This document shows, piece after piece, positions 2,950 to 61,259 of a stretch of DNA of 64,000 nt. The stretch comes from Hyperoplus lanceolatus (lineage: Eukaryota; Chordata; Actinopteri; Uranoscopiformes; Ammodytidae), in NCBI GenBank assembly GCA_026929865.2, contig CM049400.1:15381001-15445000 (forward strand). The letters run 5' to 3'. Every line of letters begins with the position of its first letter. Position 1 is the stretch's first letter. A program made the position numbers and the translations under genes. Under the pieces are notes generated by a model. That model was not told the DNA's origin and searched no databases. It saw nothing but the letters and a program-made list of their open reading frames with translations.

Positions 2950-4893
2950 TTAGATTTGGGTCTCTTGTACATTGTCTTTTGAGCTGGCCCGGATTAACAA
3001 AGGTTCGTGCGCTGAGCTATGAATGGAGTTCATAGTGGGAGCATGGTTGTATGCAGACTTATATGTGTTATAGTGGTTGAGGTGCTCATGCTCAAGAGGC
3101 GGCAGAGTCAGGTGGCCTTCCATGCCTGGACCTCCTGTTACACAATCCTCATCCACATTGATGATCTCAATGGTGCGTGTGGGTGCATGGTGGTTCTGTT
3201 GGTGGTGTTGTTTGCGCATCTTGTAGAAGATGATCAGCATGACAGCTGCCATGAGGGTGATTGCAACAAAGCAGCCAATGATGATCTTGGTCGTCTTCAT
3301 TACTTCATCCAAGCCATTCAGGCCCTCCCCGCCCAGCTCTGTAACAGGGATTGTGTAAGTCTTCTCTGTGGCACGGGTTGATAGTGGGGTCCGGGCTGTG
3401 GTGGTAGTTGTAGAGGTGGGTGAAATAGACTCCCATATACCAGCAGAGGGAGTGGGGCCCACCTTCTGTTGCACAGTAGTGGTAAAGCCTTCAGTATGTG
3501 GCGTCTCTATGGTCTCCACTGTCACTGTGGTGAAGTAACTGAAGCTGCTGTTCTCTGTAGAGGACACGTTGAGTGTTGCAGATGCTGTTGTGTTACCTGC
3601 AGAATTACTGACCATACAGGTATATGTGCCTGTATCTTGCATGGTAACATTGGTGAAGTTCAGAGTACCGTCATTAAGCACAGAGATTCTGACCTTGTAT
3701 GCACCGTGCGTCATTATGGAACCATTTGGTGTAATCCAACTTACCGAGGTCAAGGAGCTGGCTCTGCATTTCAACTCTGCAGCGCTTCCCTCTGTCACAT
3801 TAAGGTCTGCAGGAGGCTCCACAATAACAGGAGCATAACAGTGAAAGTAGTTCTGGTCCAGCTCGCCAATGTATCGTCCCTTATGGTGGGTTGGGGAGCT
3901 GCAGCGGGCACAGCAGCTTGTGTTTGCTGGTACCATCTCCTTAAGCCACCAGCTTAGCCAGAGGATGTCACAGTTACAATTCCACGGATTATGGTGCAAA
4001 TGCACCCTCTCCAGGTGATGTAAAGGAGTGAAGAGATCATGGGGCAAGAGGGTAAGATTATTATGGGCTAGGTTGAGCTCCACTAGTGACTGCAGGTCAT
4101 CAAAAGAGTTCCTTTCTATGATCTGAATCTGGGCATGCATCATCCATAGCTTTTGCAAATGGATAAGCCCTTTGAAAGAGCCAGGTCGTACGACAGATAG
4201 CTGGTTCCCCGACATTTCCAGTTCATCCAGCTTCACCAGGGGAATAAGATTGGGAATTTCCTTAAGATTGCACATTCCCAGATTTAAGTAGCGCAGATTG
4301 CTCAGCCCTTCAAATGCCCCCTCGGAGATGTAGGAGAGCCGTTTGAGCTCCCCAAGGTCCAGCCGCCGTAATGAGGTCACTCTGTTGAAAGCATAGGAGG
4401 GAATGCTCTCTATTGGGTTATTCCTGAGCCAAAGCTCCTTTAGTTTGGACAGGTACTCAAATGCCCCGTTTGGGATAGTAGTGAGGCGATTATCAAAAAG
4501 CTCCAAGGTGTTGAGGCTTGCCAGTCCATTGAAGGCCCCCAGTTCAATTTTGCGTATGTGATTTTTGCTTAGCTGCAGGATCTCCAGATGTCTTAGGTGC
4601 TTGAAGCTGTCCACCTTTATGACCTGAATGAGATTCTCTTGCAGATTCAGGTAGCGTGTGTTGGTAGAGATGCCATCAGGGACTTCCCGAAGGCCTCTCC
4701 GGGTGCAGATGACCTTGCTGAACTGGTTACTGCAGGAACAGACAGAGGGGCACGTCTGAGCACGTACTAACCCTGCCACCACCAGCAGCTGGAGGGCCAG
4801 AAGGAGCACCAACAAAGGGTCGGACAAGGCCCGGTTCCACCTAGGACCTCGCATCATCTGCTGCTGCTGAGAGGAGGTCATCTTGTTTAACAT
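2950..4893 (-). CDS. lrrc4c: Leucine-rich repeat-containing protein 4C (netrin-G ligand 1), complete, 647 aa
   Basis: Encodes a postsynaptic type I membrane adhesion protein. In mammals it binds netrin-G1 across the synapse and organises excitatory synapses. Visible layout: hydrophobic signal segment about 26-45; LRRNT with C48, C52, C54, C63; about nine leucine-rich repeats from 77 to 300; LRRCT beginning [15 protein letters not shown] at 302; one Ig domain with C376 and C426; a Ser/Thr-rich stalk about 444-530; one membrane helix 537-557; and a cytoplasmic tail ending ETQI, a class I PDZ ligand. There are at least eight N-glycosylation sequons (for example N324, N365, N412, N415, N434). Length and sequence track mammalian LRRC4C (about 640 aa) almost end to end, including the MLNKM start, which separates it from LRRC4 and LRRC4B. 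The whole coding region is one exon, as in other vertebrates. The start is supported by an in-frame TGA directly before the ATG. No frame damage is seen. Confidence 0.97.
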
Positions 4894-18260: not shown

Positions 18261-18718
18261 CTTTATTCATTAACAGAGTGTAGTTCTTGCACTACAAATG
18301 TCCAGTTCAGGATTTAAAACAGGTAGAAACTACTGTGTGTGTAAATCTTATTGTGAATAGTGTATTTGTTGAAGCTTATTTATGTTTGGTGCTCAAATGA
18401 ATATTTAACATAGCAGTACAGTGTATGTGGAATCCACTTACAACAAACTAAACGCCCATGTTTATCTAAATGGAAACATCAAGGAAACTATAATATCAGC
18501 AGATTAACCTGTCTTAAGTATCCTGTCTTAAGTATCCAGTCTCAGCTCTAAGTGATACTGCAGCACAGCAAGTTGAGCAAAAACTATCCAATGCTCTCTG
18601 GCTGAAACTTCACTAAGAATGAAAAATGTTGCCCAGAGCAATGATGGATAAGGGCTTTGCTGTTGTAATCATTATTATTGTTGCTATTATCAACATCATC
18701 AATATCACACTCCACAAC
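18261..18718. other. Unique sequence without recognised features
   Basis: Short AT-rich stretch between the LINE remnant and the CA microsatellite. No coding or repeat signal was recognised. Confidence 0.4.
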
Positions 18719-18740
18719 CACACACACACACACACACACG

Positions 18741-18788
<48 letters not shown>
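18719..18788. repeat. (CA)n microsatellite with two CG interruptions
   Basis: About 35 dinucleotide units, with GCACGC interruptions near 18740. Frames crossing it on either strand read as His-Thr or Cys-Val repeats and are artefacts. Confidence 0.97.
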
Positions 18789-18791
<3 letters not shown>

Positions 18792-19810: not shown

Positions 19811-20275
19811 GTTTAACATTAAATCTGACAGTGTGCGTGTTTAAATAGGTAGACATTGTTGTGTTATGACTTCAACATGGCTCCATTCCAACACATTTTT
19901 CTGGTAGAGGCAGAGAGATCATATCAATAAGTTTAAAATGATCCATGAAATCTCCAAGGTTTGCTTTGACATGATGCAAATGCATATAGAGATTCTGAGC
20001 CATATTTTCTATAATAAAAAGTCTGCGGAAGACGATGGTGAGGCGATAAAACAAATTAACAGACTTTAAAGTAGGCTTTAAGGAATCATTATCTGGAACA
20101 AAGAATGCAATTTTGTAATTCTCTCAATTACATGATCTGTGACTTAATTAAATTAGAATACGGCTAAATGAGTACTTTAATATGATTTTTAATTAATACA
20201 CGTCTCAGCTACGTACACCATTTGTCAGTAGACAATATGAGCGCTTACAGGCTTTTCAGGCATATTCTGTTTATC

Positions 20276-20306
20276 TGTGTGTGTGTGTGTGTGTGTGTGG
20301 GTGTCC

Positions 20307-20390
<84 letters not shown>

Positions 20391-20404
20391 GCATACGTGT
20401 GTGC
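20276..20404. repeat. (TG)n microsatellite
   Basis: About 60 TG units with an internal GGGTGTCCTTG interruption near 20299-20309 and a CGTGTGCATACG end. The frames crossing it are artefacts. Confidence 0.97.
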
Positions 20405-23400
20405 ATATTTGTAGAGGAATGCTTGAGTCTGCACTATGTAAAAAATGTACTGGCAATAATCAACACCTCTGGCAACCAGACCTTCTTGAAATACAGACAA
20501 ACATACCACCATGTATACTTTAGCCAAAGTGATTTAGGAGCAGTGGACATGTTGCCAGGTTTTTATTTTGTAGTTGGTGAAATTGGCACAAGATGAAGTC
20601 TATTTATTTTAATAGGATGGCTTCATATACTTCTTTTCAGAATACAACAAACAATATCTACTGTATAAATCCAATGGGATTGACTTGCATGGTTAAAGGA
20701 TAGTAGCAAAGAACAAAACAAAGACTGCTTATTTGCACGGTTATGCCCGACATAATAATCCTTTCCATACATTTGTTTGTGAACATGTGGCGTTGTTTGT
20801 TTGAAAAAAATAACTTTAAAAGAACTCCCTTTGCACCACAGTTCAGGATTCTGCTGCACCAAAGGGATGTCGCAGAGAAACTCATTGCAGGGTGGAATTA
20901 GTGCAATCAGGGCAGATATGGAATTAATATGTCTGATTAAGTGCCTGACTGAATTAGCATTTGGAGTCCAAAGAGAGTTCAAGAAGGAGGGGAAGGATGA
21001 GATATGTTCTGTGGAGAGAAAGAGAGGCTATGGAACAAAATAGATTAACAAAGACAGGAAGTCGCTGCTTGTTCTTTTTTTTTATATACACATTTTTGTA
21101 TGAAAGCTTATTATTTTTTGTATGATGTATTTTGATTTCATTCTAGCTCAGAGACAGCTGTTCCTTGTGTGTGTTCTTGTTGTTTCTAAAAATCAAAAAC
21201 CCAATAACTAAATGAAAAAAGACAGGAAGGGGAAGAGAAAAGGTGAATGACTTGAGAAGTTTAGCATAAAACACTCCTTTGCCCCTTACTTTTACTCAGA
21301 CCAGTCTTGTCTTTTTTGATTAATTATTTTTGACAAGGATATGTTCCTTCCACTCATCTGCCTGTATAATGTATTCTTAGTCACCCTCCTGTCTTAGGGT
21401 CTCATACACACACCAGCTGTCAGTGGTTTGAGATGGGTGAGGTAATTGGTAAAATGTTACAGTTCCTTCGACTTAGATGTTTTGATTTGTTTCGATGAAG
21501 TTGAAAGGTTGAAATAACTATATGACAATGCTTATGTGCTGAAGAAGACATTTAAATGGGGACATTTTCAGGTGGTGGCAAACTAGGAACACAATGCAGA
21601 GAAAAAGGCCAGAGAAAAAAAGATCAGGCAAGGGGTGGTTTGAGGCGAAGCAGGCAAGATGAAAGAGACAGACTGCATGTTTAGCCCCAGAGAGAGGGGA
21701 GGAAATTACCAATATGAAATCTCTCCCTCAAACTGTCTGACTTTCATATGAAAGGCCTCTGAAGAAAAATGGTTGAGGACAGATGCCATGTTACCATAGG
21801 GTGATACAAAAGGCATACCGCACTGAGCCAATAAGCACATGTAATGCAGATCAATAAAAAAAGCCACCCGCAATTGTGCAATCGGGAGGCTACTACGTGT
21901 GTAATTTTGGGCTAAAAATAAATCATGCTTAAATGTCTTATTTATTAATTGAGGTCAGAGAAAAGGGAGACAAGATCTCTTAAACATAAAGCAGACGATA
22001 TGATACATTAAAAAAGAGGAAGTTGAAGAGAGCAAGGGCTAAAGGGAACGGCAGGCAGGAAAGATGAAACCTTGGGAGTGGGATAAAAGGAGAATTCAAA
22101 TTAAGAAGAAAAGGCAAAGTGGTATGTCAAAATCTTTTTGGCGAATGAGCTGAGAGAAATGAGTGAGAAAAGCAGGTGGGAGACACATGGAAGGGAGAAA
22201 AAAGAGGAGTGAAGAACGCAATAAAGTGATTGATTATCATTCAGTTCATTTCCTGGCGTTGATGGACATCATGGTGAGTCACTGGGTTGTGTCTGTCTGA
22301 GAGCAGTAGCTGAAGTGGCTAGCTGGCTGCACCATCAAAGGAACATGACACAGAGATATTCTCTAATGTTTCCCTTCTGTTCTTTCTTCAGATTTGACTC
22401 ATTTGGAAATCAGGCTGTAATTGGTATCCCATTTGATGTAGGAACGTACTACTTGTTACAGTCAAATTAAGTCCTCTTTATGACACAATGCTCCTTTCTT
22501 GTTGTGTTGTAAAAAAAAACTCTGAAGATCTGGATTAATAAGTGTGTACGTTGTCAGAGCTCTCAGACTAAATTGCATAATAGTCCGTTTTGTCAGCGCA
22601 AGTTTCAGTTTTATTTTTTTTTGCTCTGATATCGTAATGCCTACATGCCGGTTGGTTGACCAGGGCCATTATTTACAACCAATGACTAGATTGTCATGAC
22701 ATTGAGGTTCTTCACTGACCCTACAGTATGATTTGAAGTGATTTTGGTGACCCTTCTTCACCTTTTGTATGGCGGTAGGTCAAGCACAAAGGATAAATCA
22801 TATTACTGAATATTTGATGATCCTATGACCTTTGCTCTAGCATTGGCATTGTGTAAGGTTTTCTAGTTCAATGCCAAAATATAAACCACAAATTAACATG
22901 TGTATTTATTAAGCACACTCGCGCACAGCCGAGGATGGACCCCTTCCATTACAGACACTTTTTGTGCTACAATCCAATTAAATTTTCAACTATGGCGGCC
23001 AGCAATAAAACAACTAACTGAGTTCTTCTATTTGAATCTGCTTTGGATAATTGTGCTCCCTAGAGCGTGGATCCTGTTCTCAGGAATCTTGTATTGTGAT
23101 CATACTGTGACTTTGTGAATAAACAGAGCCTAACTGACTGGCGTTTCTTGCTCGCATCATAATTAATCCAATTCTACATGGGAACTATTAAGTCCCCGTA
23201 GGCAGAAAGCAGACACATCTACTTTGCTTGTTTGTGGTCCCCAGAGATAAAACCTTTGACTTTAGTGAGACCATGACCTAAGCTCTCGTGCCATCCTGAG
23301 AATGAAGTAACTTTATAAAAAAGAAATATCAAAATATATTTAGCATATTGCAAAGCATTTCTAGATATTTTAAAGGTTCCAAGGAATTAAACCCATTTGA

Positions 23401-25052: not shown

Positions 25053-25265
25053 CAGTATCTCACAAAAGTGAGTACACCCCCTCACATTTCTTCACAGTTT
25101 TCTTTATATCTTTCCATGGGACAACACTGAATAAATGACACTTTGATACAATGTAAAGTAGTCAGTGTACAGCTTGTATAACAGTGTAAATTTCCTGTCC
25201 CCTCAAAATAACTCGACACACAGCCATTAATGTCTAAACTGCTGGCAACAAAAGTGAGTACACCC

Positions 25266-25629
25266 CTTAGAAAAAATTTACAAATTGGGCCCAAAGTGTA
25301 AATATTTTGTGTGGCCACCATTATTTTCCAGCACTGCCTTAACCCTCTTGGGCATGTAGTTCACTAGAGCTTCACAGGTTGCAACTGGAACCCTCTTCCA
25401 CCCATTTATGACAGCATCACAGAGCTGGTGGATATTAAAGACCTTGCGCTCCTCCACCTTCCGTTTGAGGATGCCCCAAAGATGCTCAATAGGGTTTAGG
25501 TCTGGAGACAGGCTTGGCCAGGCCATAACCTTTACCCTCAGCTTTTTTAGCAAGCCACTGGTCGTCTTGGAGGTGTGTTTGGGGTCGTTATCATGTTGCA
25601 ATACCACCCTGCGGCCCAGTTTACGAAGG
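25266..25629 (-). pseudogene. Tc1-like transposase C-terminal fragment, inverted left copy
   Basis: On the minus strand this encodes the catalytic C-terminal half: LQHDNDPKHTSK with the second aspartate of the DDE triad, SPDLNPIEHLWGILK with the glutamate, and the tail MPKRVKAVLENNGGHTKY. The frame is intact within the fragment, better preserved than its partner at 26119-26450. It lacks the DNA-binding region and first aspartate, which lie in the spacer on the opposite strand, so no complete transposase can be read. Confidence 0.9.
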
Positions 25630-26450
25630 TTGAGTGCACATGGTCAGCGTCGTACACAGAGGTTGGCTTTGGAAAATAGACGTATGAGTGCTGCCAGCAT
25701 TGCTGAAGGGCTTGAAGGGATGGGGGGTCAACCTGTCAGTGCTCAGACCATACGCCGCACTCTGCATCATACTGGTCTGCATGGCTGTCATCCCAGAAGG
25801 AAGCCTATTCTAAAGATGATGCACAAGAAACCCCACAAAAAGTTTGCTGAAGACAAACAGACTACGGACATGGATTACTGCAACCATGTCCTGTAGTCTG
25901 ATGAGACCAAAATACATTTATTTGGTTCAGATGGTGTTAAGAGTATAGAGCGGCAACCAGGTGAGGAGTACAAAGACAAGTGTGTCTTGCCTAGAGTCAA
26001 GCATGGTGGTTGGAGTGTCATGGTCTGGGGCTGCATGAGTGCTGCCAGCACTGGGGATCTACAGTTCATTGAATTCTAACATGTACTGTGACATACTGAA
26101 GCAGAGCATGATCCCCTTCCTTCATAAACTGGGCCGCAGGGCAGTACTGCAACATGATAACGACCCCAAACACCCCTCCGAACGACCACTGGCTTGCTAA
26201 AGAAGCTGAGGGTAAAGGTTATGGACTGGCCAAGCATGTCTCCAGTCTTAAACCCTATTGAGCATCTTTGGGGCATCCTAAAACGGGAGATGGAGGAGCG
26301 CAAGGGCTCTAATATCCACCAGCTCCTTGATGTCGTCATGAATGGGTGGAAGAGGATTCCAGTTGCAACCTGTGAAGCTCTAGTGAACTACATGCCCAAG
26401 AGGGTTAAGGCAGTGCTAGACAATAATGATGGCAAAACAAAATATTGACA
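25630..26450 (+). pseudogene. Tc1-like transposase, N-terminally truncated, with nonsense and frameshifts
   Basis: Starts mid-protein at the arm/spacer junction with the second helix-turn-helix region (ENRRMSAASIAEGLEG, VSAQTIRRTLHHTGLHG). The motif WSDETK, which carries the first catalytic aspartate, has its Trp codon changed to TAG at 25894-25896. The frame continues to a TAA at 26077-26079, then shifts at about 26077 and again near 26170-26185. The last part (26194-26448) reads LKKLRVKVMDWPS, NPIEHLWGILKRE and the family's C-terminus. About the first 85 residues of a normal Tc1 transposase are missing. Not functional as it stands. Confidence 0.88.
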
Positions 26451-26690
26451 CTTTGGGCCCAATTTGGACATTTTTTCTTAGGGGTGTACTCACTTTTGTT
26501 GCCAGCAGTTTAGACATTAATGGCTGTGTGTCGAGTTATTTTGAGGGGACAGTAAATTTACACTGTTATACAAGCTGTACACTGACTACTTGACATTGTA
26601 TCAAAGTGTCATTTATTCAGTGTTGTCGCATGGAAAGATATAATGAAATATTTGAAGAAATGTTAGGGGTGTACTCACTTTTGTGAGATA

Positions 26691-26693
<3 letters not shown>

Positions 26694-38080: not shown

Positions 38081-39200
<1,120 letters not shown>

Positions 39201-59646: not shown

Positions 59647-60036
59647 TACAGTGTCGTGCGAAAGTTTGTGAACCCCTTGAGCCTTTTGGAATTTTATTTA
59701 TTTTAACCATTATTAATTCATTTTTTTCAATACCAGTATTTTTTATATGAAATAATAGATGTTTGTTTATCAATTCAACATTTTTCTTTTCCAGAAATCA
59801 ATTGTTAAAACAGTTAAAACAAATTATTTGACAAATGTTGTATGTGCAAAAGTTTGTAAACCCTAAGCTGCATTGCTTAAATCGAGCAAGGTAAACACAA
59901 TCAGGTGGGCCAAATTGATTGATGAAATAGACCAATGTAATGAGAGATCTTTAGGGAAGAAATTGGGCGCCACTATAAAACAGAGATAAAACCAGACCAG
60001 TTTAGGCCCACCAAACTGAATCCATACAGGTCAGAC

Positions 60037-60599
60037 ATGCTAAAAGGGAACAACATCTCAGAAGATCTCAGGAATAGAGTTGTGATGCTGCACATTTGTC
60101 TGGGGACAGCTATAAATTAATTCAAAAAAAGTTTGAGCTCCATCGGTCCACCGTGAGGCAAATAATCTACAAATGGAGAGCTTTAAGAGTGACTGAACAT
60201 CTGCCTAGAAGTGGACTTCCTTCAAAAATATCTTCAAGCGCCACAAGAAAAGTATTTTTTTAGTTAAAAGCCAACCCACACATTACATCTAGTGATTTGC
60301 AGACCTCTCTTGCAACATCTGGGACAGATGTGCATGGTTCCACAATAAGAAGAAAACTCAGTCAACATGGCTTTCAACGGAGGGTTGCTGAAGAAGCCTC
60401 TGCTCTCAAAAAAGAACAAAACTGCTTGTCACAGCTTTGCCAGAGAGCACCTGGAGACACCTGAAGTCTTATTCTGTGGACAGATTAGTCCAAAATGGAT
60501 CTGTTTGGTCATAACCAAAACCACCATGTTTGGGCAAAAACGCAACTCTGCCTACCACCAACAGAACCTTCTCCCAAGTGAAGAATGGTGATGGCAAAT
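60037..60599 (+). pseudogene. Tc1-like transposase, C-terminally deleted and broken
   Basis: Begins with ATG and reads MLKGNNISEDLRNRVVMLHI, then after a shift FELHRSTVRQIIYKWRALRV and LPRSGLPSKIS, the paired-like DNA-binding domain. The spacer continues VHGSTIRRKLSQHGFQ. At the first catalytic aspartate the frame reads LWTD, then a TAG at 60486-60488 where Glu is expected, then SKMDLFGHN. The sequence then runs into the inverted arm, so the second Asp and the Glu of the triad are absent. Several stops and shifts; not functional. Confidence 0.88.
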
Positions 60600-60768
60600 G
60601 GTCTGCAAATCTCCAGATGTAATGTGTGGGTTGGCTTTTACCTGAAAAATCCCTTTTCTTGTGGTGCTTGAAGATATTTTTGAAGGAAGTCCACTTCTAG
60701 GCAGATGTTAAGTCACTCTTAAAGCTCTCCATTTGTAGATGATTTGCCTCACGGTGGGCCGATGGAGC

Positions 60769-60966
60769 TCAAACTTTTTTATACGAATGTATAGCTGTCC
60801 CCAGACAAATGTGCAACATCCAAACTCTATTCCTGCGATCCTCTGAGATTTTTTCCCCTTTGAGCATGTCTGACCTGTATGGGTTCAGTTTGGTGGGCCT
60901 AAACTGACCTGGTTTTATCTTTGTTTTATCTAGTGGCGCCCAATTTCTTCCCTCAAGATCTCTCAT
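60769..60966 (-). pseudogene. Tc1-like transposase N-terminus, inverted right copy
   Basis: The minus strand encodes the mirrored start of the same transposase, including SDMLKGEKISEDRRNRVWML. It is open for 65 codons, including upstream non-coding DNA read in frame, and then breaks. It is the partner of 60037-60140 in the left arm. Confidence 0.8.
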
Positions 60967-61259
60967 TACATTGGTCTATTTCATCAATCAGTTTGGCCCA
61001 CCTGATTGTGTTTACCTTGCTCGATTTAAGCAATGCAGCTTAGGGTTCACAAACTTTTGCACATACAACATTTGTCAAATCATTTGTTTTATCCATTTTA
61101 ACAATTGATTTCTGGAAAAGAAAAATGTTGAATTGATAAACAAACATCTGTTATTTCATATAAAAAATACTGGTATTGAAAAAAATGAATTAATAATGGT
61201 TAAAATAAATAAAATTCCAAAAGGCTCAAGGGGTTCACAAACTTTTGCACGACACTGTA

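Follow-up and report, generated by a model that had tools for sequence, protein, structure and literature searches.

A foldback Tc1-type element in which an inverted 5' part stands in place of the 3' part

The sequence at 59649-61257 is a dead, non-autonomous copy of a Tc1-type transposon; it extends from the 5' end roughly halfway into the transposase gene and then continues with its 5' 657 bp in inverted orientation. Rearrangements of this kind are already known from mariner MITEs of Drosophila, and 59649-61257 is such a case in a Tc1 family. We put a probability of roughly 60% on an origin in which the element's own 5' 657 bp, inverted, took the place of the 3' part (the remainder of the catalytic domain, together with the 3' end), through repair with strand switching or through fold-back. 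Positions refer to the window, which is the whole 64-kb stretch of DNA analysed. The features discussed are:

59649..61257, plus strand: whole foldback Tc1-type element, 1609 bp (self-BLAST, inverted repeats, flanking TA)
59647..59648, no strand: left TA target-site copy (read directly)
61258..61259, no strand: right TA target-site copy (read directly)
59649..60305, plus strand: left arm, with 5' terminal repeat, leader and transposase N-terminal region (93.8% identity to the inverted right arm; HTH_SB-like piece and start of HTH_Tnp_Tc3_2)
60306..60599, plus strand: single-copy middle, where the second HTH ends and the first catalytic Asp region lies, with stops and frame changes
60600..61257, minus strand: right arm, the inverted 5' 657 bp replacing the usual 3' part (self-BLAST; tblastn of left-arm HTH pieces)
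59656..59675, plus strand: left outer direct repeat, IR/DR-like layout (direct-repeat search)
59844..59863, plus strand: left inner direct repeat, 188 bp from the outer one (direct-repeat search)
61043..61062, minus strand: right-arm inner direct repeat, identical to the outer one (direct-repeat search)
61231..61250, minus strand: right-arm outer direct repeat (direct-repeat search)
60600..60605, plus strand: candidate junction microhomology GGTCTG, reverse complement of 60300-60305; its catalytic side is by analogy with an element of another family
25053..26693, no strand: mirror foldback of another Tc1 family, with the 3'/catalytic end inverted and replacing the 5' end

The initial annotation had described a foldback with arms of about 657 bases, and self-comparison bears this out: in self-BLAST, 59649-60305 pairs with 61257-60600 at 93.8% identity over 659 columns. 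Left arm (657 bp), middle (294 bp) and inverted right arm (658 bp) make up the full 1609 bp. By sequence reading and self-BLAST this is a single TA-flanked Tc1-type element, both ends of which are the 5' end; its tips read CAGTGTCGTG...CACGACACTG. The middle is single-copy within the window, and self-BLAST of the element finds no other match there at E 1e-5. Each arm carries two 20-nt direct repeats 188 bp apart; judged by the position of the inner one, the terminal repeat is about 215 bp long.

An inverted-repeat search recovers the arms as three ungapped pieces (348 nt at 95% identity, 155 nt at 88% and 181 nt at 94%); they are split because of small indels. A scan of the whole window with at most 4 kb between copies gave 174 ungapped pairs. 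Among the 25 longest, the top four belong to 59649-61257 and to the element at 25053, and none of the remaining 21 exceeds 83 nt. RNA folding of 60250-60660 predicts a strong hairpin (z -9.3), which simply restates the inverted repeat. Elsewhere in the window, 18713-18791 with 20270-20416, and also 38947-39120, show inverted-repeat pairing in many registers, as simple-sequence arrays do. The minus strand at 2950-4893 holds an open frame of 647 aa that combines leucine-rich repeats with an Ig-like part and a membrane stretch; we assume that it resembles the vertebrate LRRC4/netrin-G-ligand gene. Taken with the two transposons, this gene suggests a fish as the source of the window.

The arms contain inverted copies of the transposase N-terminal region, as had been proposed. 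In the left arm, Pfam gives an HTH_SB-like match (E 3.2e-9; 36.9 bits, under the curated cut-off of 43) and the start of an HTH_Tnp_Tc3_2 match (E 2.2e-10; 41.1 bits, over the cut-off of 31.5), which crosses into the middle at 60306-60599. The left-arm HTH pieces are found again in the right arm by tblastn, at 60779-60645, 60826-60776 and 60641-60600. The middle is broken by stops and frame changes; read through and compared with solved structures, the frame matches the first catalytic Asp region of Sleeping Beauty (5cr4, E 2.3e-4) and its second HTH (5unk, E 0.006).

The proposed loss of the catalytic C-terminus is borne out, with one refinement. A DDE C-terminal probe from the 25053 element, which comes from another family and itself matches Sleeping Beauty at E 1.5e-26, finds nothing in 59649-61257 by tblastn at an E limit of 1, in agreement with a missing C-terminus. 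The extent of the deletion is smaller than a loss of the whole catalytic domain; the 5cr4 match places the first catalytic Asp region in the middle.

Like fish Tc1 elements of the Sleeping Beauty kind, for which we take IR/DR to be the group name, the element has TA on both sides, a bipartite HTH N-terminus followed by a match to the first catalytic region, and terminal inverted repeats that are about 200 bp long and carry two direct repeats each. Unlike them, it has an inverted 5' half in place of the 3' half and a broken frame; both ends are 5', and the inverted repeat extends to 657 bp. The DDE domain is represented by its first Asp region only. Since a complete DDE domain is missing, 59649-61257 is a derivative of a Tc1-like element of IR/DR type rather than an autonomous member.

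Long inverted arms also define the FB element of Drosophila, a classical foldback transposon. Other classical foldback elements such as Galileo and Tetris likewise have long inverted arms. Galileo is placed in the P superfamily and has internally repetitive TIRs, whereas the arms of 59649-61257 are mostly transposase-gene and leader sequence.

The closest likeness is to rearranged mariner MITEs. According to PMC4161770, 7 of 27 mariner MITE sublineages in Drosophila have had their 3' portion replaced by 5' sequence and have unusually long TIRs; the 5' end is the duplicated one in all seven. How such rearrangements arise is, in the authors' word, elusive. The sublineages Dromar7, 11, 28 and 36 share with 59649-61257 the Tc1/mariner affiliation, the long inverted repeats, the inverted 5' part in place of the 3' part, and a sequence that is traceable throughout to the parent element. 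The MITEs differ in size (460-1000 bp, compared with 1609 bp), in occurring in at least two copies, compared with one seen within the window here, and in having parents with 28-30 bp TIRs, compared with TIRs of about 215 bp with direct repeats here. Two other papers touch on the subject: PMC4877112 describes a Bari1 variant whose two long TIRs are identical, as well as MITEs rearranged in a manner reported to be distinct from abortive gap repair, and PMC4678618 discusses abortive gap repair for deletions in Rhodnius.

A second foldback lies in the same window at 25053-26693. It had been described as the mirror case, and this agrees with the domain content: its 3' end is duplicated, with a DDE_3 region in both arms, compared with the 5' end and HTH at 59649-61257; its middle holds the second HTH and the first catalytic part. 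The element is TA-flanked and inserted within an AT-rich microsatellite. Its arms (577 and 575 nt) differ at 40 of 575 sites (K2P 0.073), and the coding differences fall 10, 10 and 8 on the three codon positions (28 sites, P 0.87). The two foldbacks do not match each other by blastn at E 1e-5; for this reason they are assigned to different Tc1 families, as had been suggested. The 25053 element keeps 121 open codons of the DDE C-terminal frame at 25278-25643, in the left arm and 14 bases of the middle, and its right arm has a frame change.

The best mechanism for 59649-61257, as read from its sequence, would be repair-type template switching between terminal repeats. A break or an excision gap in an ordinary copy would have been undergoing repair when the new DNA changed template from one inverted terminal repeat to the other, the two being near-identical and about 215 bp long. 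The new strand would then have copied the 5' half backwards and joined within the catalytic region through a microhomology of a few bases. Inverted terminal repeats could supply both the wrong-way copying and the return to the exact end, as a strand that enters one repeat can continue on the other. Alternatively, a broken 3' end may have folded back, primed on itself and been resolved in the terminal repeat; either route, excision-gap repair with a strand switch or priming by fold-back, would fit the anatomy. What the anatomy needs is a junction in the catalytic region, reverse copying of the 5' half, and an exact-end return to the right flank. The repair route and the direction in which the strand copied are inferred, as are the microhomology and the near-identity of the parent's two repeats.

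Several observations argue for a repair origin. No foreign sequence is present, 657 + 294 + 658 bp accounting for the whole element; both ends are the same (5') end, and each adjoins TA. The window holds an element of opposite polarity, and PMC4161770 documents a layout like that of 59649-61257 for mariner. The flat codon-position spread of the arm differences, the lesions confined to one arm and the GGTCTG at the start of the right arm, all described below, count on the same side. Other observations argue against it. The alignment on the catalytic side needs a 4-nt gap and the GGTCTG match is broken under a second setting, the differences between the arms are clustered, and a frame change near 60083 occurs in both arms.

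The inner junction (60593-60611) reads GGCAAAT-GGTCTG-CAAATC. The right arm opens with GGTCTG, and at the corresponding catalytic motif the 25053 element has ATGGTCTGGGG in a local alignment with a 4-nt gap; a global alignment, the second setting, puts the gap inside GGTCTG and breaks the match. A 6-nt GGTCTG microhomology at the junction, seen by analogy between the two families in one of the two alignments tried, is possible.

The arms of 59649-61257 agree at 618 of 656 aligned sites; the 38 differences (K2P 0.060) are accompanied by two indels. In the coding stretch, 11, 5 and 9 differences fall on codon positions 1, 2 and 3 (25 sites, chi-square P 0.33). Such a flat spread is expected from neutral decay after duplication. 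It gives no hint that two working genes were under selection, although two dead copies would look the same. At both of the terminal-repeat differences that can be polarised by the direct repeats (two of seven), the left arm carries the odd letter.

Read by eye, a stop at 60261 is confined to the left arm, while a stop at the place of 60195 and an indel at 60124 are confined to the right arm. The frame change near 60083 occupies one and the same site in the two arms, where the letters differ; because of it, a complete lack of shared lesions cannot be asserted. It may represent two separate deletions or one lesion that predates the duplication. Most, not clearly all, of the decay in the coding stretch of the arms postdates the duplication, and the parent was perhaps already defective.

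The differences are clustered (dispersion P 0.005), with 7 adjacent pairs between 59649-60305 and 60600-61257 against 2.1 expected (P 0.004). The 25053-26693 element shows no clustering (dispersion P 0.31; 4 adjacent pairs against 2.7 expected, P 0.29). Error-prone synthesis, two different source copies or misplaced indels could all account for the clustering in 59649-61257; the pairs at 60082-60083 and 60119-60123 may be misplaced indels.

It is only a little short of an even chance that the rearrangement took place once elsewhere, and that 59649-61257 is an inserted copy of an already amplified foldback lineage resembling long-TIR MITEs. This is compatible with a repair origin and moves the repair to an earlier copy. 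Clean TA-flanked ends and direct repeats kept in both arms are consistent with such a lineage, as is the occurrence of all rearranged Drosophila sublineages in at least two copies (PMC4161770); self-BLAST, on the other side, finds no second copy within the 64-kb window. The outer 215 bp are also less diverged than the inner arm when exact arms are compared, with 7/215 against 31/441 differences in 59649-61257 (Fisher P 0.073) and 8/213 against 32/362 in 25053-26693 (P 0.026). This gradient is weak and shrinks when stratified by G+C class (one-sided P 0.21 and 0.058, respectively).

With arms that overrun the junction by one or two sites, the contrast gave P 0.011 (240-bp boundary), 0.037 (215 bp) and 0.043 (without CpG) for 59649-61257, and 0.036, 0.018 and 0.014 for 25053-26693. 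Better-kept terminal repeats, as a hint of later mobility, were rejected as weak; the signal fades with exact arms and G+C stratification.

Two ordinary copies might instead have inserted nearby in opposite orientation, followed by a deletion that took both 3' halves and the intervening DNA. The TA flanks are as compatible with two insertions as with one, and the clustered arm differences could be old differences between copies. This course of events is nevertheless improbable: it calls for two insertions plus a fitting deletion, and this twice within 64 kb and with opposite ends. Formerly active copies should also show an excess of third-position differences, and the counts are 11, 5, 9 and 10, 10, 8 in the two elements; this codon argument is weak, because copies that were already dead would show no such excess.

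Long inverted repeats are a known class of artefact, but a misassembly or library artefact (hairpin or inverted chimera) is, judged from the sequence alone, highly unlikely, because identical arms would be expected and the arms differ by about 6% in 59649-61257 (38 of 656 sites and two indels) and about 7% in 25053-26693 (40 of 575), with indels, and end exactly at transposon tips adjoining TA.

Replacement of the 3' part by the inverted 5' part through repair is thus the preferred reading, and a recurrent process behind such foldbacks is plausible; it fits the seven published mariner sublineages, although two cases in one window are no proof. According to PMC5953449, Tc1/mariner elements make up about 20% of the repeats of channel catfish; two Tc1 copies in 64 kb of a fish-like genome are therefore not odd in themselves. 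The 25053-26693 element has its 3' end duplicated, unlike all seven cases in PMC4161770. Among the titles and abstract beginnings of open-licence literature on Tc1/mariner foldbacks, gap repair and fish elements, no report of both foldback polarities was found, and sequence words from the terminal repeats are absent from the open-licence papers searched.

Searches for relatives of the two elements gave no confirmed match in the collections covered. Five viral contigs share an 18-nt match, and none of them matches either element by blastn at E 1e-3; further pattern scans of viral contigs gave 81 and 4 pattern matches, none confirmed, and two other patterns had no match. Pattern scans of a genome contig collection and distant blastn against plasmids and phages found no relatives.

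Two opposite foldbacks of different families within 64 kb would be a first sign of a regular process. It is a tentative idea, and on balance an unlikely one, that foldbacks of both polarities (either end duplicated) are a regular repair by-product of Tc1-type elements with long, near-identical terminal repeats, and that, if transcribed, they produce long double-stranded RNA spanning the transposase gene and could act as silencers of their own family. If foldbacks of both polarities are common in the genome, the origin of long-TIR MITEs becomes testable by comparing the junctions of many events with their parents; otherwise, 59649-61257 simply adds to the number of decayed transposon copies. 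For such a comparison, long terminal repeats may make a family better suited than mariner, as differences between the 5' and 3' repeats could mark the strand switch.
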